Of a DNA stretch of 11,486 nucleotides, positions 630 through 9,770 are shown piece after piece. Within the stretch, counting starts at the first letter, position 1; every line of letters starts with the position of its first letter. The stretch lies in assembly GCA_027297085.1 (NCBI GenBank), contig JAPUIL010000296.1, positions 1 through 11,486 on the forward strand, read 5' to 3'. The position numbers and the translations under genes were made by a program. The notes under the pieces are model-generated. The model made no database searches and had not been told where the DNA came from. It worked only from the letters and a program-made list of their open reading frames with translations. Source of the DNA: Verrucomicrobiota bacterium. Its GTDB lineage: Bacteria > Verrucomicrobiota > Verrucomicrobiia > Opitutales > UBA2995.

Positions 630-2054
630 ATGTTTGAATTCCTCAACAAATTCTGGGAGTGGATCCTGTCGTCGTTCCAGTGGATCCTGGGCGCTCTTTT
701 TTCCAATGTACTGGCTGTTTTTGGATTTATCCTGGCGATCGTCATAATCATGCGGATTTTCCGCGAACAGCGCAGACCGAGTAGTATCCTGGCCTGGAGT
801 TTTTTCATCATTATGATCCCGTATCTGGGAGTTCCGCTCTATTTTCTATTTGGAGGGAGAAAGTTGAAGAAAAAGATTCGGGCCAAAGGTTTATTAACCG
901 GTACTGGCGAAAGCCACGCCACTTCCTTTCCGGTCAGGGATCTGTTTCACGCGACGGGAAACAAAGTCAAATTCCAGACTGACGGTCAGGTCGCCTTTCA
1001 TAATTACTGCCAGGCCATAGAGGAGGCAGAAAAGGAAATTCACATTCTGACCTACATCTTGGGTGATGACGCAGTGGGCAATGCCATCCTTGACTTACTT
1101 ATCGGTAAAGCCCGTCAAGGTGTAAGGGTGCGACTGCTGGTAGATGCTTTGGGATCGTTTCATAAACCAGCTGAGAAAATCAAGGCTCTGAAAACGGCAG
1201 GGGCCGAAATGTTTACGTTCATGCCCGCATTCCCCTTTCAGACCCATGGATGGGCGAATCTGAGAAACCACCGAAAAATTGCCGTCATGGATAATCGCAA
1301 GTGTATTTTGGGTGGAAGAAATTTGGATGTCCGGTTCATGGGTGACAAACCTGACCCTGATCGTTTTTACGACTTTGGCGCAACCTATGAAGGTCCCATC
1401 GTGGAGTACCTGAATCGCATATTCCTGTCTGACTGGGCTTTTGCCAGTAAGCAGGCATTGGAAGATATCGCGGATCTTGTTCCTCATTCTTCGGAGGTGA
1501 TGGGGAATAGTAATATAACGGGAATTGCAAGTGGACCCGATGTGATTGGCGATATGTTGTACGAACGGCTGGTCAACGTTATTCAAGAGTTTGAAGATGA
1601 GTTGATTATCGTAACGCCGTATTTTATTCCGGATGAAGTGCTGCTTCGTTCACTCATTGTAAAGGCTCGTAGGGGGAAAAAGATTACACTTATCCTTCCT
1701 GAGAAATCGAATTGGGCTTTGGTAGACTTTGTTCGTAGTGAATACTTGCGTGAACTGCTTGAGGCGGGGCTCAATATTCAGCTGTTCCAAGGAGGAATGT
1801 TGCACGCAAAGGTTATGGTTTCAGACCGGAAATTGGCGCTGCACGGGTCGGCCAATTTTGACATTCGCAGCCTGTTTGTGAATTTTGAAATTGGAATGGT
1901 CCATACGTCTTTGGAAGATATCCAACCGATCCTTACCTGGTTAGACTGGTTGACCGATCGTTGCCGGCCATTCGGTAATGAGTTGGAATTGAACCCTCCC
2001 AGAATCAGGAAGGTCTTGGAAAATGCCGCACGCCTTGTTGCTCCATTACTTTAA
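630..2054 (+). CDS. cls: Cardiolipin synthase (phospholipase D superfamily)
   Basis: The enzyme condenses two phosphatidylglycerol molecules (ClsA-type reaction) to cardiolipin and glycerol at the inner membrane. The 474 residues match ClsA length. Residues 15-45 and 52-75 are two hydrophobic segments, the usual PLDc_N anchor, ending in a basic stretch (GGRKLKKKIRAKG). Two catalytic HKD motifs are intact: H214-K216-D221 in NHRKIAVMD followed by GGRN, and H392-K394-D399 in LHAKVMVSD followed by GSANFDIRS. ATG 630 is the first possible start, because a TAA lies in frame at 618-620. No clear Shine-Dalgarno site precedes it. The gene appears to be transcribed alone, between the RDD terminator and a convergent glycosyltransferase operon whose stop codon lies 28 bases beyond. 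A phosphatidylethanolamine-using (ClsC-like) or other PLD-type transferase is less likely given the N-terminal membrane anchor. Confidence 0.95.
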   Translation: MFEFLNKFWEWILSSFQWILGALFSNVLAVFGFILAIVIIMRIFREQRRPSSILAWSFFIIMIPYLGVPLYFLFGGRKLKKKIRAKGLLTGTGESHATSFPVRDLFHATGNKVKFQTDGQVAFHNYCQAIEEAEKEIHILTYILGDDAVGNAILDLLIGKARQGVRVRLLVDALGSFHKPAEKIKALKTAGAEMFTFMPAFPFQTHGWANLRNHRKIAVMDNRKCILGGRNLDVRFMGDKPDPDRFYDFGATYEGPIVEYLNRIFLSDWAFASKQALEDIADLVPHSSEVMGNSNITGIASGPDVIGDMLYERLVNVIQEFEDELIIVTPYFIPDEVLLRSLIVKARRGKKITLILPEKSNWALVDFVRSEYLRELLEAGLNIQLFQGGMLHAKVMVSDRKLALHGSANFDIRSLFVNFEIGMVHTSLEDIQPILTWLDWLTDRCRPFGNELELNPPRIRKVLENAARLVAPLL

Positions 2055-2082: not shown

Positions 2083-4074
2083 CTAGGAAGAATAGTACTC
2101 CTGGAACAATTTCTTCGAAGGATCTTTGCCGAGCAGCCTTAAAACTTTGTATCGAATTAGCAATGACAACACTTGTCGAATCCGGACAAAGGGCTGGTCT
2201 TTTTCCCAGCGACGGGCTGAGCACTTGAGATCGCAACCCAGAAGAACGAGATCACCTTTCCATTTCAACCGGGTTGTCAGCTCGACGTCCTCCATGAGAG
2301 GAATATTCGGAAAACCGCCCACGTCTTCGAGGGTTGATCGTCTGAAAAACTGTCCCTGGTCGCCAAAGCTGTTTCCTTGCCACTGTGCCCGGAAGTCATT
2401 CAAAGCTTCCACCATGACCAAAACGGGCTTGGTTTTCGCTGAAATAAAGCGCTGTCCAATAGCCCCTCCGACCGCTTCCGGGTTCGCATTTAGTACGTTG
2501 AGAATCTGTCCGGGAGTGTCAGGGGTCACTTGTGCGTCGGCATGAAGCACCAGGACGACATCCGAGGTGCTTGCCTTTACTCCAGTGGAGATCTGGTAAC
2601 CTCGTCCCTTCTGGCCGACCAAAAATTGAACGGGAAAAGACTTCACTATGGTTTCTGTATCGTCTGTGGATCCTCCATCCACGACCACGATTTCATGAAG
2701 GGGGATTCTGGAGGCCTGCAACGACTTTAAACAAGAGGACAGGTGCGAACTTTCGTTTAAAGCCGGTATTACTACCGACAAGGTCTCTGCGCGTGTGTAC
2801 GGCTTGGACTTGAACAGATTGCGCACACCGAGGAAAAACTTGGGAGTCCAAAGTAAGTAAAAGGGGATCCATTGGAGGCGAAGGTATCCGATGGACTGAT
2901 ACCACTCACCTGTTTTCCCGAATTGAACCCAGGCGGAGAAGTAAAATGCTGAAAGACCGAGAAGTACTAACCAGGGCAAGGATGGGAAAAACACTATCGA
3001 AGGTAGAACCCAGGAAAAATACCAGTAGTGAACAGTGGGCGATAGTAGAATAAGTGCGCCAAAAATGATATAACTCCCTTTCAGCACATCGCGGGTTTTG
3101 AGAGATGTTATCAGAATTACCGCGAGTAATAGAACCACCGATAGCCTGGAAGCCAGTTCCCTACTTCCCCAGAAATCGATAAAAAGATGATTGATTGAAC
3201 CGTTGTGAGACATGGTTTCGCCATAATGGAGAATGCCCTCCAAAAGGTTGGGCAAGTCGTTCCAGAAAACCAGTGAGGGGAGGATCAGGGGGACCAGAAT
3301 CCATAGCACCTTGACCGAACGGTATTTCCAGAAGAGAAGTGGAATTATCAACACGCTAATCAGTTTTACTTGAATGCTCAGACCGAGAATGACCCAGGCC
3401 TGCGCGATTTTCCCTTTCTCCCAAAAAACCAGAGAGGCCAGCACAAGAAAGATAAACAATGAGTCAAAGTGTGCCTCTCCACTGAACGCAATGATTGTAA
3501 TCGGATTCAGCGCGTAGAACAGACTGTTGCGTAGCGGCAGCTTTCTCATCTTCAGGATCCGGACAATCATTCCCAGCACCGCTAAGTCCATGAGCCCGAA
3601 AAATAACTTGTAGATCCAGGAGTGGTAGCTGATCAGGTTCAATCCGGCAAAAACCGTCAATACCAGCGGTGGGTAAGCCGTTCTCTGTTCCCGGTGGTTC
3701 ATCTCTTCCCAGAAACCATCGCGGTACTTTTCCAATTCTGGAGCATCCGCGGTTAACGCATAGGGGCTTTCACCCGCAAGAAGAAGTTTTCCTTCCCAGA
3801 GGTAGCGGTTCACGTCGTCGCTAGTGGGAAAGTTAGCCATCAGCAACCGGCTGATCACGGCCAGACCGAATATTATGAGGAAGGACGTCCGTTTGTCTGT
3901 CCGGTCAGGAAAAAATGCCCAGACCAGCAGGCACGTACCAGCCATGGCCAAATAAAGTACGATTAGTGTAGAAGCGTCCTCTGCCAGGGAATCGGTAAAC
4001 CCAACTGCCAGGGAAAGACTCAGAAATACTAAAACAGAAACGCAGAAAACCAGTGGTCGCAGAATCCGATTCAC
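2083..4074 (-). CDS. Fused glycosyltransferase: GT-C-like membrane half plus TIGR04283-like GT2 half
   Basis: A 663-residue two-part protein. Residues 1-420 are polytopic (about ten hydrophobic segments). They carry features of GT-C, lipid-linked-sugar-dependent mannosyltransferase-like enzymes (GT87/DUF2029 type): an acidic pair in the first long loop (SDDVNRYLWEG, D86/D87) followed by GESPY and TAYPPL, and GEAHFDSLFIFL at 199-210. Residues 431-663 form a GT-A fold GT2 domain: SVVIPALNE (433-441), VDGGSTDDT (465-473), HAD (511-513) at the metal-binding position, GDQGQFF (571-577), LMEDVEL (593-599) and SARRWEK (619-625). This motif order matches the TIGR04283 transferases. The start is GTG at 4074, 11 bases after the stop of the upstream glycosyltransferase, so the two genes are surely cotranscribed and perhaps coupled; no clear Shine-Dalgarno site is seen. 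Donor, acceptor and product are unknown; a cell-envelope glycan or glycolipid is the reasonable inference. Confidence 0.85.
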   Translation of the reverse strand: MNRILRPLVFCVSVLVFLSLSLAVGFTDSLAEDASTLIVLYLAMAGTCLLVWAFFPDRTDKRTSFLIIFGLAVISRLLMANFPTSDDVNRYLWEGKLLLAGESPYALTADAPELEKYRDGFWEEMNHREQRTAYPPLVLTVFAGLNLISYHSWIYKLFFGLMDLAVLGMIVRILKMRKLPLRNSLFYALNPITIIAFSGEAHFDSLFIFLVLASLVFWEKGKIAQAWVILGLSIQVKLISVLIIPLLFWKYRSVKVLWILVPLILPSLVFWNDLPNLLEGILHYGETMSHNGSINHLFIDFWGSRELASRLSVVLLLAVILITSLKTRDVLKGSYIIFGALILLSPTVHYWYFSWVLPSIVFFPSLPWLVLLGLSAFYFSAWVQFGKTGEWYQSIGYLRLQWIPFYLLWTPKFFLGVRNLFKSKPYTRAETLSVVIPALNESSHLSSCLKSLQASRIPLHEIVVVDGGSTDDTETIVKSFPVQFLVGQKGRGYQISTGVKASTSDVVLVLHADAQVTPDTPGQILNVLNANPEAVGGAIGQRFISAKTKPVLVMVEALNDFRAQWQGNSFGDQGQFFRRSTLEDVGGFPNIPLMEDVELTTRLKWKGDLVLLGCDLKCSARRWEKDQPFVRIRQVLSLLIRYKVLRLLGKDPSKKLFQEYYSS

Positions 4075-4085
4075 AGAAAGTCGAT

Positions 4086-5606
4086 TCAGGCCGCGGCCGT
4101 TGCTGTGTCAGGCTTTTTCGTGCGTCCCGTCATTTTACCGGCCATGGTTCCCTGGATCAGTCCAAGTAGGCCTATATAACCAAACCCTATGGCATAAATA
4201 ACCAGGAATGGAGCCACGAACCACTTGTTCAATGGGAAAAACTGGACGACCGAATACCAGCAGTAGAGGCTAAAGACAATTTCCAACACCGGGAGGATAG
4301 GCATCTTGACCGTGTAGTTTTTCAAAGCTTTATCTCCGCTTTTAGGGGTCCTCACAAATCCACTTTCCACACCCAGTAAAGCTTCCAAGACTGCTCGTGT
4401 ATTCGAAATGGCAATGCCAACGCCGGTAAACATAAGTATGGGAATTCCCAGCAACCGTTTGGCCCAATGGATTCCAGCCTGCTTCTGGCTGAACCAGTAA
4501 AGTGTGCTAGGTGCAAACGTGGCCAGGCTCATCAGGCTTCCGATTCCCAAAATCAGCGCTGGGGTGAATCTGGATTCGGCCGCCAGGATGACGGGCAGCC
4601 CGAGCAGTGCCAGCAGCACCATTAATGGGTGTATTGCGTAATGAGTGAGGTGAAAGTATGCCTGGACTTTCTGGAATAGACTCAAGTCCGATCTCCAGAG
4701 CTTCGGCAACAATTTGAGTGCCGTTTGAATGGATCCCTTTGCCCAGCGAAATTGTTGGTTCTTAAAGGCCGCGACTGTTTCTGGAATCTCGGCCGGAACC
4801 ACAACATCGGGCACGAAAGTAGCCTTCCAGCCGGCGAGTTGCGCACGGTAGGAAAGGTCCAGATCCTCAGTCAGGGTGTCGTGTTTCCACCCGCCCGCGT
4901 CGACAATGGTTTGTTTTCGCCAGATGCCGGCGGTTCCATTGAAGTTCATATAAAGTCCTGAAAAGGCCCTGGCACTTTGCTCTACTATAAAGTGTCCGTC
5001 GATGCCCAGTGACTGTGTTCTGGTAAAGAGCGAATGCCCTTTGTTGAGATGCCCCCAACGCGCTTGAACCAATCCTACTTTGGAGTCGTTCAGGAAGAAC
5101 GGAACCAGCCTCCGCAGGAAGTCGGGATTGGGGACAAAATCGCTGTCGAATACGGCCAGGAGTTCACCTTTGGCCTGCATGGTACCTTCTTCAAGAGCTC
5201 CGGCCTTGTAGCCTATCCGGTTCTTTCTGCGGATTACGGTGATATCGATACCTTGCTTCCTCAATTCATCCGCGACTTGGTCAACCCGGAGCTGAGTCTC
5301 ATCCGTTGAATCGTCCAATACCTGAACTTCATGTTTTCCAGTGGGATATTCCAAGGCTGCAGCGGCCCGAATTGCCCGTTCGGCAACATTCAATTCGTTG
5401 TAGAGGGGAATCTGGGTGGTAATGGTGGGAATCTGATCTTGATGATCCCAGATCGAGGCCTTTGATTTTTCGATGGCGGCATTGGTTTCGCAGCCACGGC
5501 GGAACGACCGTAAATAAAGCCACACAACCACGTAGCAGTTCATGCCGTAGGAAAACAGGAATAACGATGCTGCAAAATAGATGCCTAGTATGGTGAGATC
5601 GATCAT
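4086..5606 (-). CDS. Cellulose-synthase-like processive glycosyltransferase (GT2)
   Basis: A 506-residue inner-membrane GT2 enzyme of the CESA/CslA-like type, expected to polymerise a beta-linked glucan or mannan from nucleotide sugar while moving it across the membrane. Residues 5-32 are an N-terminal membrane segment. The catalytic domain shows IPLYNE (66-71), LDDSTD (97-102), the metal-binding DSD (154-156), TED (246-248, catalytic base region) and QQFRW (284-288, the QxxRW acceptor-site motif). These are all the residues of an active processive synthase. C-terminal hydrophobic segments lie near 323-343, 348-370, 387-402, 437-457 and 462-486, with GFVRTPKSG (416-424) typical of this subfamily. 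No PilZ domain is visible, so direct c-di-GMP control is not indicated. No bcsB, bcsZ or bcsC neighbours are present, which argues against classical cellulose export. It is the first gene of an operon with the fused glycosyltransferase downstream. The substrate is not determinable from sequence alone. Confidence 0.9.
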   Translation of the reverse strand: MIDLTILGIYFAASLFLFSYGMNCYVVVWLYLRSFRRGCETNAAIEKSKASIWDHQDQIPTITTQIPLYNELNVAERAIRAAAALEYPTGKHEVQVLDDSTDETQLRVDQVADELRKQGIDITVIRRKNRIGYKAGALEEGTMQAKGELLAVFDSDFVPNPDFLRRLVPFFLNDSKVGLVQARWGHLNKGHSLFTRTQSLGIDGHFIVEQSARAFSGLYMNFNGTAGIWRKQTIVDAGGWKHDTLTEDLDLSYRAQLAGWKATFVPDVVVPAEIPETVAAFKNQQFRWAKGSIQTALKLLPKLWRSDLSLFQKVQAYFHLTHYAIHPLMVLLALLGLPVILAAESRFTPALILGIGSLMSLATFAPSTLYWFSQKQAGIHWAKRLLGIPILMFTGVGIAISNTRAVLEALLGVESGFVRTPKSGDKALKNYTVKMPILPVLEIVFSLYCWYSVVQFFPLNKWFVAPFLVIYAIGFGYIGLLGLIQGTMAGKMTGRTKKPDTATAAA

Positions 5607-5723
5607 GAACGGTCATGTTGGCTCGGTTGGAAGCCTTTTACTCCAAGAACCATGTTTGAGTTTCTATGCAATCGGAAGAGTGTTGAAGTTCATTTATTCC
5701 AGAGGAAACGATAGCTTCCGGGA

Positions 5724-6623
5724 TTAGTCTTTGGATGAACCCGCCCGTCCGGGAAACGTCAGTTCCGCGACGGCGGACTTATCGAGCTGCCCTAGCCCCA
5801 GAGATTTCAGTTTCTCATATTGTTCAAAGGTCGCCTTGGCCAATGGAAGTTTGATCCCGGCTTGGTCAGCGAGTGTCAGTGCGATTCCCGTATCTTTGGC
5901 TGCGTGCTCGGATGAGAAATAACAGTCGTGTTCACGGGTTACCATGTCCTCGGCGTCTGTTTCCAGAACGCGTGAATTGGCTCCCGTTTGGGCAAATACC
6001 TCGCGGAGCATTTTAAGGTCCAGTCCCATTGCTTGCCCCAATCCCAAGCCTTCCGCCAGAGCGGCAGTGTTGATGTTCATTACCATGTTCACCAACGCCT
6101 TTACTTGCGAGGCTGATCCTGCGGGACCGACAAAACGCAGGGATTGGCTGAGGCACTCGAGCAGCTCCTTAATGGCCGTGAAAACAATCTGGGTTCCACC
6201 CACCATCAGATAAAGGGTTCCTTGCCGGGCCTGAGGTATACTCGATGCCATACAGGCCTCCAGGGATTGTGCCCCTGCATCGTGACATGCATTCTGGAGG
6301 TCTTCGTGGATGGACGGGCTGAGAGTCGCGCAGTTTATAAATGTCTTCCCTTCGGCCTCCATGAGGAGGTTGTCAGCCTCATTGTAGAAAATATGCCTCA
6401 TCGCGGCATCATCCGTAACCACCGTAAAAACGATATCAGCCAGGCGTGTGACCGATTTCAGATCGCTACACGCCGTAGCGCCGGTTTGTTCAGCCAGCTT
6501 CTGGGCGGTTTCCGAGTCAATGTCGTAAACGGCGGTGATGGGGTATTTACAGTCGTGCAGGCGCAGCGCCATGTTGAACCCCATGCGGCCAACGCCCACA
6601 AATCCGATTGTTGGTAATGTCAT
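5724..6623 (-). CDS. NAD(P)-dependent beta-hydroxyacid dehydrogenase (3-hydroxyisobutyrate dehydrogenase family)
   Basis: A cytosolic oxidoreductase of 299 residues, the usual family length. The Rossmann half begins with IGFVGVGRMG (GxGxxG, residues 6-15), and a following acidic residue (YDID, D34/D36) suggests NAD+ rather than NADP+. The C-terminal all-helical half carries the catalytic lysine in SQVKALVN (K175, with N179 four residues on) and ends with the family-like GLGQLDKSAV (276-285). The substrate-carboxylate motif, usually DAPVSGG, reads EACMASSIPQARQGTL (122-137), so the Gly-Gly is missing and the substrate may not be 3-hydroxyisobutyrate. Tartronate semialdehyde reductase, succinic or glyoxylic semialdehyde reductase, or an imine-reductase-like activity are alternatives. 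The gene is separated from the upstream sigma operon by a terminator and from the downstream glycosyltransferases by 117 bases, so it is probably monocistronic. No Shine-Dalgarno site is apparent before ATG 6623. Confidence 0.88.
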   Translation of the reverse strand: MTLPTIGFVGVGRMGFNMALRLHDCKYPITAVYDIDSETAQKLAEQTGATACSDLKSVTRLADIVFTVVTDDAAMRHIFYNEADNLLMEAEGKTFINCATLSPSIHEDLQNACHDAGAQSLEACMASSIPQARQGTLYLMVGGTQIVFTAIKELLECLSQSLRFVGPAGSASQVKALVNMVMNINTAALAEGLGLGQAMGLDLKMLREVFAQTGANSRVLETDAEDMVTREHDCYFSSEHAAKDTGIALTLADQAGIKLPLAKATFEQYEKLKSLGLGQLDKSAVAELTFPGRAGSSKD

Positions 6624-6673
6624 AATGGAGAGGAGATGTATGAAAGTGTGCCGGCGAGCCTAAAACCTTTCAA

Positions 6674-6715
6674 CAAAAAGAAAAAGGCCGAAATGAGCCA
6701 TCTTCATTCCGGCCT
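6674..6715 (-). terminator. Intrinsic terminator of the sigma operon
   Basis: On the minus strand a 12-bp stem (6704-6715 paired with 6685-6696, one mismatch, GC-rich base AGGCC/GGCCT) closes a 7-base loop. It is followed by a T-rich tract, the complement of AAAAAGAAAAAC at 6674-6685. It lies downstream of the DUF3106-like gene and upstream of the dehydrogenase gene, separating the two. Confidence 0.88.
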
Positions 6716-6737
6716 GAAATTGTCTGTTAATTCGAGG

Positions 6738-7184
6738 CTATTTTTTGATCGCCTTCTTGACTTGCTCGATCTGCTTGTCCCAGGGCAACTCTTTGAACTT
6801 CTTTCGCTCAGAGGCGGATAATTTGCGCAGGTGATCGAAATATGCTTTCTTGAGATCAGGACTGAGCTCGTTCCAACGGGCGATAGTTTCCTTCCGTTGC
6901 TCCGTGGGCATCTTGTTCAGATTCTGGATTCGTTGCAAAGCCTTCTTCCGGTCTGTGGGAGACATATTCTCGATGGTCTCCAAGGTGAGGCGGACCCGTT
7001 TCAAGTCCTCCTTAGGCATTTTCAGAAGCTGTTGCAGAGTGGTCAGATCTTCATTACTCTCCTTAGAGTTCTTTTTCTCATCGGCTCCAATTAGTGACAC
7101 CGCCGTCGAGAAAATCACAAAAAGCAGCCAGAGTGAGAAGCTCTTTCTCAGTCCAGTAGCGGGAAATGTTTTCCAGAGTTTCAT
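6738..7184 (-). CDS. DUF3106-like exported helical protein
   Basis: A 148-residue protein with a basic N-terminus, a hydrophobic core at about 15-33 and a likely signal-peptidase site near IGAD (32-35), so it should be periplasmic, or a membrane-anchored protein facing the periplasm. The mature part is highly charged and predicted all-helical. It is built from recurring short units that begin with a turn and run into a basic helix: MPKEDLKR (56-63), MSPTDRKK (74-81), MPTEQRKE (92-99), LSPDLKKA (107-114) and LSASERKK (122-129). This resembles DUF3106 proteins, which occur beside ECF sigma genes in other bacteria, and superficially resembles CpxP/Spy-like periplasmic sensors or chaperones. The start ATG overlaps the preceding stop (ATGA), and GAGG sits 7 bases upstream. 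As last gene of the sigma operon it may act as sensor or effector for the sigma/anti-sigma pair; that is inference. Confidence 0.72.
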   Translation of the reverse strand: MKLWKTFPATGLRKSFSLWLLFVIFSTAVSLIGADEKKNSKESNEDLTTLQQLLKMPKEDLKRVRLTLETIENMSPTDRKKALQRIQNLNKMPTEQRKETIARWNELSPDLKKAYFDHLRKLSASERKKFKELPWDKQIEQVKKAIKK

Positions 7185-7663
7185 GAATCGGCCTCGTTGA
7201 AAAAGATATATAGAGGAACTGTCTTCTCGAGCTCAATGAGAACTTTCGCAGAAGCGAGAGTTTCTTCCAGATATAAAAGTTCCTCGAGTTCCATCCCTGC
7301 AATATCGATTTGGGCGACTTGGGAGGAAGATACAGATGGGCTTTGGCCTTGCCAAACCGAATAGCTGAACAAGCCTACGAGCAGGACAGCGGCCACCATG
7401 CCCATTTTAACCAACCAACTTGGTCCAGGAAAACGAAATATATTTGAGGGAGCCTTGGCTTCTATCCGATCAAGCGTGCGCTCAGTGAAGTCCGGGCTTA
7501 TCGTAACAAGGTTCCCAGCCAGAAGTACATCCACTTCTACCTCCGAAACGGGAGATGCTTTAATTAAAATCCTTTCAGCAAAGGAATCTTGCGGTGCGAC
7601 TGGACTCCCGGATAAGAGGGCATCCAGCTCTTCATCGGTGATGGTGCGTTTCCCGGGGTTCAT
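7181..7663 (-). CDS. Putative anti-sigma factor, single-pass membrane protein with internal duplication
   Basis: Encodes 160 residues from ATG 7663. A longer frame to 7714 exists, but the chosen start has GGAGG 7 bases upstream and overlaps the sigma stop as TAATG. Residues 1-80 should be cytoplasmic, about 84-104 form one membrane helix, and about 105-160 would be outside. There is no HxxxCxxC zinc motif. The cytoplasmic part is a tandem duplication with a 31-residue period: ELDALLSG (12-19) with DSFAER (26-31), then EVDVLLAG (43-50) with PDFTER (57-62). The outer part is acidic and helix-prone (ELEELLYLEETLASAK). Position directly after an ECF sigma gene, translational coupling and single-pass topology support an anti-sigma role. 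It parallels the DUF3619-type gene of ECF-DUF3619-DUF3106 operons in Betaproteobacteria (recalled, not searched). No database family is assigned with certainty. Confidence 0.75.
   Translation of the reverse strand: MNPGKRTITDEELDALLSGSPVAPQDSFAERILIKASPVSEVEVDVLLAGNLVTISPDFTERTLDRIEAKAPSNIFRFPGPSWLVKMGMVAAVLLVGLFSYSVWQGQSPSVSSSQVAQIDIAGMELEELLYLEETLASAKVLIELEKTVPLYIFFNEADS
7192..7195 (-). promoter_or_regulatory. Ribosome binding site of the DUF3106-like gene
   Basis: GAGG on the minus strand, 7 bases before the ATG at 7184 and inside the 3' end of the anti-sigma coding region, supports that start. Confidence 0.6.
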
Positions 7664-8223
7664 TATAAGGCCTCCATTTCTTTCTTCAATTGGGTCCGAG
7701 CCCGGTGAATCCATGTTTTGACGGCATTCTCGTTTGCTTTCATTACCTCTGCTATCTCCTGATAGCTAAGTTGTTGCTGTTTATAAAGTAGTAGAGCTGT
7801 TCTGTGTTTTTCCGGCAGTTTCTTTATGGCCAATTGGAAAACCTCCTCAATTTCGTTCAATCGGCGCTGGACCTCCGGATCCTCGTTTTCACCGTAGTTA
7901 AACTCCTGGGGATCTACATAATCCACTGGTTTACGGCTTCGACGGCGGAATTCATTGAGCAGGACTCGCCGGGCTACATGGAACAAGAAGGTAGAGAATT
8001 TGGCACGGGCCTGGTAACGTTCCGCGGCACGGTAGATTTTGATGAAAACCATTTGGGCCAAATCTTCCGACTCAGCATAAGAACCCAGGGAACGATAGAA
8101 AAAATTGATGAGCGGCTTTTTCCATTTGTCGATCAGCTGACGCAATGCCTCGGAATTGCCTGCGGCGACCTCAAGCATGAGGCTGATATCTTCGTCGATT
8201 GGTATCACGGCAGGTTCGGACAT
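7663..8223 (-). CDS. ECF-type RNA polymerase sigma factor (sigma-70 family)
   Basis: Encodes 186 residues from ATG 8223 (MSEPAVIPIDEDI). An in-frame ATG at 8310 would add 29 residues that look unlike a sigma factor, so the shorter form is preferred, though neither start has a clear Shine-Dalgarno site. Region 2 spans about 24-97: DLAQMVFIKIYR (54-65) is the core-binding/-10 recognition part, followed by FSTFLFHVARRVLLNEFRRR. A linker rich in acidic residues (100-120) leads to region 4 at about 132-180: LPEKHRTALLLY, then the helix-turn-helix LSYQEIAEVMKANENAVKTW that reads the -35 element. Region 3 is absent and the length is that of ECF factors. The downstream putative anti-sigma gene starts within the stop codon (TAATG), so the two should be made in a fixed ratio. 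The stimulus and regulon are unknown; the neighbouring exported protein suggests an envelope signal. Confidence 0.9.
   Translation of the reverse strand: MSEPAVIPIDEDISLMLEVAAGNSEALRQLIDKWKKPLINFFYRSLGSYAESEDLAQMVFIKIYRAAERYQARAKFSTFLFHVARRVLLNEFRRRSRKPVDYVDPQEFNYGENEDPEVQRRLNEIEEVFQLAIKKLPEKHRTALLLYKQQQLSYQEIAEVMKANENAVKTWIHRARTQLKKEMEAL
7671..7675 (-). promoter_or_regulatory. Ribosome binding site deciding the anti-sigma start
   Basis: GGAGG on the minus strand overlaps the last sigma codons and stands 7 bases before the ATG at 7663, fixing that start over the upstream in-frame alternative at 7714. Confidence 0.8.
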
Positions 8224-8360
8224 ATCCCATGTGGCTATGTTCTGCCTTTGTAGCTGCCAAGCTGATAATGGAGAGGCTGTTAATTCCATGAACCATAAAT
8301 CCCCTTTCATCGGGAAAAGTTGCAGCTAAAACGGGATTTTTTTGTCTATCACCTTGATGA

Positions 8361-8496: not shown

Positions 8497-8525
8497 TTGA
8501 CACAAGATGTAGGGGTTCCCATAAC
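8497..8525 (+). promoter_or_regulatory. nrdBA promoter (sigma70 type)
   Basis: The -35 element TTGACA (8497-8502) is a perfect consensus, and a 17-base spacer leads to CATAAC (8520-8525), a 4 of 6 match to the -10 consensus. Transcription would begin near 8532, giving a leader of about 150 bases before nrdB. NrdR box 1 overlaps the -35 and spacer, and box 2 covers the expected start site. Confidence 0.7.
8500..8515 (+). promoter_or_regulatory. NrdR box 1
   Basis: acACAAGATGTAGGGG fits the 16-bp NrdR consensus (acaCwAnATnTwGtgt): the left half and central AnATnTwG match, and the right end is degenerate. It overlaps the -35 element, as expected for repression of dNTP synthesis genes when dATP is high. 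Confidence 0.75.
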
Positions 8526-8531
8526 TTTTCC

Positions 8532-8547
8532 CCACAACATATGGGGG
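8532..8547 (+). promoter_or_regulatory. NrdR box 2
   Basis: ccACAACATATGGGGG matches the NrdR consensus core ACwAnATnTnG. It begins exactly 32 bases after box 1 (16-base gap, three helical turns), the spacing typical of paired NrdR boxes, and would cover the transcription start. Confidence 0.75.
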
Positions 8548-8684: not shown

Positions 8685-9770
8685 ATGGACAAAATATTTA
8701 CGATTGGAAGTAAGACTTTCATCCTGGACGAAACCAAAGCCGAAGCCGCTTACGCCGCCAAAAAAATCATCAATGGTCGTGAGTCCATGACCTTCAACCT
8801 CTTACCCTTGAAGTACAAGTGGGCGTATGACCTATACCGCACCATGAAGTCCAACCATTGGGAGCCTGAAGATATTCCGATGAACGTGGACATTGACCAA
8901 TGGAAATCTACAGACCTGCTCAGCGATGTAGAACGTTGGATCATACGGATGGGTATTGGATATTTTTCAGCCGCTGAGGGAATCGTTGGTGACAATATTC
9001 TCCATGTAATCCGTGAAGTTGTCACTGCTCCGGAGTTGAAGCTCGTTTTGGGACGCCATGCGCATGAGGAAAACATCCATGCGGATTCACTGCTTTATAT
9101 GATCAGTTCTCTGGGTATCAACCCGCATGAATGTGAGGCTATGTTCGAGGACATCGATACCATCGTTAAGAAAAATGAATTCGTTACCCGTACTTCCCAG
9201 GCGCTTCGCAGGGATCTCGATCTCACCCAAATTGAGAACAAGCAGCTACTGGCTAAGAACATGTTTATCTTCGGACAGTGCATGGAAGGCACCCAGTTCT
9301 ACGGATTATTCGGTATGGTCTTGTCTCTTTATCGGCAAAACAAGTTTCCCGGTATTGGCCAGATGTTTCGTTACACCCTGCGCGATGAATCCAACCACAT
9401 CGAGTTATTGCGAAACTTGTTTATGGATTTGATCTCGGAGAATCCCGATATATGGACCGAATCCTTCCGGCAAGAGTGTGTGGACCTCATGAGGGAGGCT
9501 GTCTCCCTCGAAAAGGAATTCATCCAGGATTGCCTGCCCGTGAACGCGGTAGGTTTGAGCGCCGAATCTTTTACACAATATATTGATTACATAGCAGATC
9601 GCCGTCTCGAAGGCGTCGGGCTTCCTTTGATTAATCCAGGTGTTTCCAATCCATTCCCCTGGCTCGCCGAAATGATGGATATCCAGAAGGAGCAAAACTT
9701 CTTCGAAGGTCGAGTCACTGAATACCAGAAAGCATCTGCCCTGGAACATGTAAATGATGACGAACTCTAA
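8685..9770 (+). CDS. nrdB: Ribonucleotide reductase class I small subunit, class Ic type (Leu at radical site)
   Basis: Makes the metal-based oxidant that starts reduction of ribonucleotides to deoxyribonucleotides in partnership with NrdA. The 361 residues fit the family. Metal ligands by alignment (from memory) to Chlamydia trachomatis R2: E98 (AAEGIVGDN), E129 and H132 (EENIH), E201 (CMEGTQFY), E235 and H238 (LRDESNH). All six are present, with Glu rather than Asp at the first site, as in Chlamydia. The position of the radical tyrosine (E. coli Y122, Chlamydia F127) is L136 in HADSLLY. Electron-transfer residues are kept: W59, D234, Y230 (Chlamydia Y222) and C-terminal Y347. These facts point to a Mn/Fe class Ic enzyme. 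There is no N-terminal ATP-cone, so allosteric activity control must reside in NrdA. ATG 8685 lacks a visible Shine-Dalgarno site. The gene precedes nrdA by 28 bases and follows an NrdR-controlled promoter. Confidence 0.95.
   Translation: MDKIFTIGSKTFILDETKAEAAYAAKKIINGRESMTFNLLPLKYKWAYDLYRTMKSNHWEPEDIPMNVDIDQWKSTDLLSDVERWIIRMGIGYFSAAEGIVGDNILHVIREVVTAPELKLVLGRHAHEENIHADSLLYMISSLGINPHECEAMFEDIDTIVKKNEFVTRTSQALRRDLDLTQIENKQLLAKNMFIFGQCMEGTQFYGLFGMVLSLYRQNKFPGIGQMFRYTLRDESNHIELLRNLFMDLISENPDIWTESFRQECVDLMREAVSLEKEFIQDCLPVNAVGLSAESFTQYIDYIADRRLEGVGLPLINPGVSNPFPWLAEMMDIQKEQNFFEGRVTEYQKASALEHVNDDEL

Follow-up and report, generated by a model that had tools for sequence, protein, structure and literature searches.

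A ribonucleotide reductase small subunit with leucine at the radical site in a mostly verrucomicrobial clade: a probable class Ic-like enzyme

The nrdB–nrdA locus and its surroundings

The window, by which we mean the whole stretch of 11,486 nucleotides analyzed here, carries a ribonucleotide reductase (RNR) gene pair that runs to the end of the contig, along with the following genes and sites.

630-2054, plus strand: cardiolipin synthase-like PLD protein (272 bits, cut-off 290)
2083-4074, minus strand: 663-aa ORF with a C-terminal family-2 glycosyltransferase domain (TIGR04283, 176 bits, cut-off 182)
6738-7184, minus strand: DUF3106 protein, after the 177-aa ORF
7181-7714, minus strand: 177-aa ORF with no family match, overlapping the sigma factor gene
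7663-8310, minus strand: ECF-type sigma factor gene
8500..8515, plus strand: putative NrdR box 1 (ACACAAGATGTAGGGG), upstream of nrdB
8532..8547, plus strand: putative NrdR box 2 (CCACAACATATGGGGG), upstream of nrdB
8685..9770, plus strand: nrdB, class I RNR small subunit (R2), ORF of 361 aa
9799..11486, plus strand: nrdA, large subunit with an N-terminal ATP-cone (PF03477, PF00317, PF02867), its 3' end open at the contig end

The minus-strand genes at 6738-8310 possibly form a sigma/anti-sigma operon. The N-terminal part of the 663-aa ORF has no Pfam match and looks membrane-bound.

NrdB matched PF00268 at 225.6 bits and scored above the cut-offs of two NCBIfam RNR beta-subunit equivalogs, NF005550 (342.7 bits) and NF007186. 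It was the sole PF00268 match in its own genome, a fragmented assembly that is 75.86% complete. The best solved chain was the R2c of Chlamydia trachomatis (275.8 bits), followed after the C. trachomatis chains by the R2 of PDB 6y2n (243.5 bits), and neither sequence nor fold comparison found a solved structure nearer than C. trachomatis R2c. The AlphaFold model of NrdB, built with 34 close relatives, had low confidence (mean pLDDT 64.3), and for this reason we took no pocket geometry from it; Foldseek with this weak model also ranked C. trachomatis R2c best, which serves as a consistency check only.

Pairing with nrdA is the usual arrangement. In 69 of 80 loci, the large-subunit gene follows nrdB in the same orientation within 1.5 kb; in six the contig stops within 1.5 kb past nrdB, and in five (L033, L061, L075, L076, L082) no nrdA was found within that distance. 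The NrdA of a genome from the same genus (G002) is full length at 1081 aa, has the ATP-cone, and retains a Tyr-Tyr pair, an N-x-C-x-E motif, and a C-terminal Cys pair. The putative NrdR boxes at 8500 and 8532 lie 32 bp apart. When the four best-scoring sites upstream of nrdB were considered for each of 25 other, hand-picked fetched loci, a box-like pair spaced 31-33 bp was present in 23 (including L004 and L010, whose upstream DNA is identical) and in neither L040 nor L043. By comparison, 200 single-base shuffles gave such a pair in a mean of 2.4 and a maximum of 6 of the 25 loci. An nrdR gene was found in all 13 genomes tested, and the nrdB–nrdA pair is probably under NrdR control.

The radical site and metal ligands among relatives

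The original prediction held that NrdB has leucine where the tyrosyl radical should be, within ADSLLY at codons 133-138 and encoded by CTG at 9090-9092, and this was borne out to the base. The residues concerned are as follows.

8976..8978, plus strand: E98, metal ligand 1 (C. trachomatis E89)
9069..9080, plus strand: E129-x-x-H132, metal ligands (C. trachomatis E120/H123)
9081..9098, plus strand: ADSLLY, codons 133-138 of nrdB
9090..9092, plus strand: codon 136, CTG, Leu at the radical position (C. trachomatis F127)
9285..9287, plus strand: E201, metal ligand (C. trachomatis E193)
9372..9374, plus strand: Y230 (C. trachomatis Y222)
9375..9377, plus strand: T231, a signature of the Leu clade, Ile in 14/14 Phe-type alignment rows
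9387..9398, plus strand: E235-x-x-H238, metal ligands (C. trachomatis E227/H230)
9723..9725, plus strand: Y347, C-terminal pathway Tyr (C. trachomatis Y338)

Alignment to characterized R2 proteins, a check named beforehand, placed L136 opposite F127 of C. trachomatis R2c and gave no Tyr for the radical position; with Leu at position 136, a classical tyrosyl radical is impossible there, as had been claimed. The six ligands said to be retained, with Glu as the first, are indeed all present, E98, E129, H132, E201, E235, and H238 falling on E89, E120, H123, E193, E227, and H230. W59 of NrdB aligns with W51 of the chlamydial protein. The prediction was also right that Leu had precedent at this position: PMC3824934, citing Hogbom 2010, lists R2c variants whose radical position is Leu, Ile, or Val. 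Leu here is already on record and is not new.

A search of genome contigs with NrdB returned at least 587 relatives, of which the best 80, at 77-92% identity, were kept. By record title, these best 80 of at least 587 are mostly Opitutae and other Verrucomicrobiota, and Kiritimatiellaeota, Lentisphaerae, Armatimonadetes, and Fimbriimonadaceae also occur among them; a few titles of metagenome-assembled genomes, such as Rubrivivax, look misnamed. All six genomes of the genus had an NrdB match, as did, at a threshold of E 1e-10, 41 of the 145 genomes in the phylum and 57 of the 113 in the class, with Phe- and Tyr-type matches counted in. An NrdB-type protein is common in the phylum, yet far from universal.

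To describe the residues at the site, we used 156 distinct sequences from fetched loci that span residues 98 and 136. The fetched sets were chosen by likeness to the window NrdB and are part of the genome-search matches, so the counts describe the clade and not all R2 proteins. E98 and L136 are found in all 116 sequences with at least 48% identity (window included), and the 40 below 48% have Phe (17) or Tyr (23) at position 136. At 65% identity or more, E98, L136, T231, and Y230 are present in 109/109. Between 48 and 65%, E98 and L136 are kept in 7/7; these include a fragment at a contig end and the second G121 copy, which has N230. Between 35 and 48%, positions 98/136/231 read E/F/I in 17 and D/Y/I in 5, and below 35% Tyr is at 136 in 18/18. 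A stricter collapse on residues 95-208 gave 110/110 Leu, 17 Phe, and 23 Tyr (bins of 103, 7, 22, and 18), and the pattern was unchanged. Across the set, Glu as ligand 1 goes with Leu or Phe, and Asp goes with Tyr in 21 of 23 cases; the two Tyr sequences without Asp have one Glu and one Gln, the latter read from a pairwise alignment. The sole exception to the Asp-Tyr pairing in the multiple alignment is a Glu row, L144. This Blattabacterium plasmid sequence has Glu98/Tyr136 as in class Id, but Gly, not Lys, past the first Glu.

Could L136 reflect faulty sequencing or assembly, or a mutation peculiar to this genome? The source assembly is fragmented and 75.86% complete, which would leave room for error, but Leu is found in every one of the relatives with at least 48% identity, before and after the stricter collapse. 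We regard this explanation as refuted, its probability being practically negligible. The E98/L136 trait is real and fixed across a large clade that is mostly Verrucomicrobiota by record title.

No close Leu-type copy was seen on phages or plasmids: 2859 phage and 355 plasmid records match, and their best places are all below 60% identity. A scan of viral contigs with the single NrdB sequence gave no match, and an alignment-based scan gave one, at 23% identity. Half-length R2 pieces in two genomes (G166 and G167) look like fragments of duplicate or contaminating contigs rather than inteins.

Place in the R2 tree and other reductases in the genomes

The original prediction placed NrdB in class Ic. 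The Glu first ligand and the nearest solved relatives, the C. trachomatis R2c chains, agree with this, but the proposed tree with other R2 proteins, once run, put the Leu sequences in a supported clade of their own outside the chlamydial Phe clade. In the 78-sequence tree they form one clade (SH-aLRT 98.2, bootstrap 99) that adjoins a clade mixing Glu/Phe and Asp/Tyr proteins. The Phe members of this neighbor are haloarchaeal, chlamydial-type, and 6y2n, and its Asp/Tyr members come from Acidithiobacillus, Flagellatimonas, a Pseudomonas plasmid, and phage Lauda. A mixture-model tree that left out the trait columns recovered the Leu clade (bootstrap 96, SH-aLRT 93); with the long-branch rows kept, the clade joins L122/L139/L141/L144 in this trait-free tree. 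Nine long-branch rows (L143, L144, L127, L138, L140, L122, L139, L141, and the second G121 copy) were dropped from a later tree, in which the Leu clade (100/99) is sister to the Phe/Tyr clade, with a warning from the program that long branches meet at the outgroup. On that tree, the minimum number of changes between Tyr and non-Tyr is three. Forcing all non-Tyr rows into a single clade costs 9.5 log units (p-AU 0.20) and forcing the Phe rows into one costs 26.0 (p-AU 0.14), and neither is rejected.

The Leu clade is thus distinct from the chlamydial Phe clade, and class Ic is not cleanly one branch; either the non-Tyr site arose several times or Asp/Tyr was regained. A class Ic RNR has been reconstructed for the last common ancestor of Chlamydiae, according to the part of PMC9816063 consulted. 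Five of our loci (L132, L133, L135, L136, and L156) have Asp/Tyr R2 proteins nested beside Glu/Phe ones, a placement that suggests conversion of a tyrosyl-radical type into a metal-oxidant type or the reverse.

Whether the Leu form works can be approached from the other RNRs encoded alongside it. In four relatives (G001, G002, G005, and G127; 94, 97, 90, and 100% complete), PF02867 matches a single NrdA and nothing else, and profile searches detected neither NRDD nor NrdI; an RTPR-type match was missing from G127 and was found in the other three only as a weak one on the same NrdA. The 75.86%-complete source genome likewise had only one RNR detected. Since this is the only RNR detected in the four relatives, and organisms need an RNR, the Leu-form R2 is presumably catalytically active. 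G003 has, besides its Leu-type RNR, an extra open frame read as class II NrdJ, and G023, G093, G096, and G145 have RTPR-like matches elsewhere, all below the cut-off; in these genomes the Leu protein need not be the sole RNR. The PF02867 search can miss genes: it failed to pick up the RTPR-like genes in G015, G080, and G104 and, as a control, gave no match in Corynebacterium glutamicum, an organism that has a class I RNR. These three near-complete genomes of the same order had no NrdB match at E 1e-10 and no PF02867 match, and each had an RTPR-like class II match under the family cut-off, so that the Leu-type RNR appears to be replaced or absent there.

The same genomic setting bears on the idea that NrdB is no RNR subunit at all but an R2lox or an inactive paralogue. 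R2lox proteins share Glu as the first ligand (PMC4118035, in part), and R2lox models do match NrdB, if weakly (at most 44.8 bits, where the cut-off is 194). However, nrdB is paired with nrdA, it is the sole PF00268 match in the genome and belongs to the only RNR detected in the four relatives, and its product keeps the C-terminal Tyr Y347, which R2lox lacks, as well as F205, the Phe lying between the metal sites, which is Ala in R2lox in the same source. With F205, Y347, and the nrdA neighbor present, we rejected R2lox membership, and a non-RNR role is very improbable.

Cofactor of the leucine form

PMC8463856 gives the pairing of radical-site residue and first ligand as Tyr/Asp in classes Ia and Ib, Phe/Glu in Ic, and Tyr/Glu in Id. 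Leu136 and Glu98 set NrdB apart from Ia and Ib, and NrdI (PF07972), the partner in class Ib, had no match in 13/13 genomes; its control matched in 3 of 14. Class Ie, in which three ligand Glu residues are lost, does not fit a protein with all six ligands. Leu/Glu is not the Tyr/Glu of class Id, and Gly102 in place of Lys and the ATP-cone of the alpha subunit also exclude NrdB from that class. It has the Glu of class Ic, but Leu for Phe, and the part of PMC4009431 consulted treats class Ic as the Phe form; the Leu does agree with the listed R2c variants.

The closest comparison is with C. trachomatis R2c (PDB 1syy, 4d8f, 4m1i), the best match in sequence and fold. Both proteins have six ligands with Glu first and no radical-site Tyr, and W51/Y222/Y338 have equivalents in NrdB; the ATP-cone of the window NrdA is described as typical of class Ic alpha (PMC8463856, excerpts). 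Unlike R2c, NrdB has, in chlamydial numbering, Leu for Phe at 127, Thr for Ile at 223, and Thr and Asn for Ile at 195 and 229, and it sits in a separate clade. The 6y2n R2 is likewise Glu/non-Tyr; it differs from NrdB in having Phe and Ile, and it groups with proteobacterial Asp/Tyr proteins.

Together, the Glu/non-Tyr pairing, the closest structures, and the conserved W59, Y230, and Y347 support a class Ic-like assignment. We consider it probable that NrdB is the R2 of an ordinary, working aerobic class Ic-like RNR whose oxidant is borne by the metals, most likely as Mn(IV)/Fe(III). This draws on direct observation of the residues, the gene pair, conservation across the clade, and genomes with no other RNR detected; from these we infer which metals are bound, in what oxidation states, and how electrons travel. 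Since the site offers no oxidizable side chain while every ligand is in place and Glu comes first, the oxidant is most naturally read as metal-based. The Mn(IV)/Fe(III) cofactor put forward in the original prediction is likely by kinship with R2c, although sequence does not fix the metals and, according to PMC4118035, the first ligand alone does not set metal specificity. The dimetal centre of E98, E129, H132, E201, E235, and H238 would react with O2 or H2O2, and the oxidizing equivalent would stay on the metals because L136 cannot hold a radical, most likely as Mn(IV)/Fe(III), site 1 being occupied by Mn. The hole would then travel a conserved aromatic route, from W59 through the region of Y230 to Y347, and from there reach the Tyr-Tyr pair and finally the catalytic Cys of NrdA. 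By analogy with known R2 proteins, W59, Y230, and Y347 are the candidate route to NrdA.

A different oxidant would be a superoxide-activated di-manganese Mn2(III/IV) centre like that of class Id (F. johnsoniae, L. blandensis). NrdB shares with class Id its Glu as ligand 1, the absence of NrdI from the 13 genomes searched, and a Thr located four positions ahead of the Glu in the second ExxH. This residue, T231, aligns with a Thr of the class Id chain 6sf4, T215 by count and 87 residues past Y128; the spacing equals that of Tyr104 and Thr191 in F. johnsoniae (PMC8463856, excerpts), and over the matched stretch 6sf4 resembles 5olk, whose title names L. blandensis. In class Id, the residue at this position forms a hydrogen bond to the unused Tyr. 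In the alignment, Thr231 is found in 23/23 Leu rows and Ile in all Phe rows, and on this basis Thr231 reads as a departure of the Leu clade from R2c towards class Id. However, Ser occurs at 231 in some Asp/Tyr rows (the 16 Tyr rows have Ile in 11, Ser in 4, and Val in 1), and a polar residue at 231 therefore does not mark out class Id. At the fourth residue past the first Glu, class Id has a Lys that is missing here, with Gly102 in 24/24 Leu rows; class Id also has Tyr at the radical site and an alpha subunit that, in the PMC8463856 excerpts, lacks the ATP-cone present in the window NrdA; and the nearest solved relatives are class Ic, not Id. We consider a di-manganese oxidant unlikely.

Alternatively, the enzyme might be di-iron, with a radical on another residue (Y230 or Y138) or a high-valent Fe centre. 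Y230 is invariant at 65% identity or more (109/109 distinct fetched sequences) and has an equivalent in C. trachomatis R2c, but in that enzyme, a member of class Ic, the metal centre serves as the resting oxidant (PMC8463856, excerpts). Y138 is His in the subclade at 50-56% identity (L114, L152-L155), and we rejected it as a radical site. We consider the di-iron reading quite unlikely.

The class Ic-like reading does not require chemistry identical to that of R2c. The Leu clade lies outside the Phe clade and has polar residues of its own, T203, T231, and N237, which with position 136 are among 18 positions special to the Leu rows under the rule used, and its chemistry may differ. One could go further and treat the Leu136/Glu98/Thr231 proteins as a cofactor subclass of their own, in which the smaller Leu, Thr231, and T203/N237 would form a polar pocket by site 1 that either donates the proton when the cofactor is reduced or selects metals other than the chlamydial Mn/Fe, such as di-Mn; we find this rather doubtful. 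The proton source for reduction of the chlamydial cofactor is called a matter of speculation in the part of PMC11883743 consulted.

As far as we have seen, the Leu/Glu class Ic-like R2 is an ordinary but little-studied natural variant. A limited literature search found no report of a characterized Leu-type enzyme, and we do not claim that none exists. In the literature examined, accounts of class Ic chemistry come from work on C. trachomatis R2c. Nature provides a large sister set in the Leu clade, which includes free-living bacteria and has a different second sphere. With this set one can ask which features of the former radical site give rise to a metal-based oxidant, and where the cofactor proton originates.

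In L130 (G121:C11), tandem nrdB genes, at 5218-6327 and 6447-7529, stand ahead of nrdA. The product of the second is 52% identical to the window NrdB and keeps the six ligands, Leu136, and Thr231, and has Asn at 230 and His at both 138 and 209. It is possibly a helper subunit, for which the R2 heterodimer of yeast offers a loose parallel.
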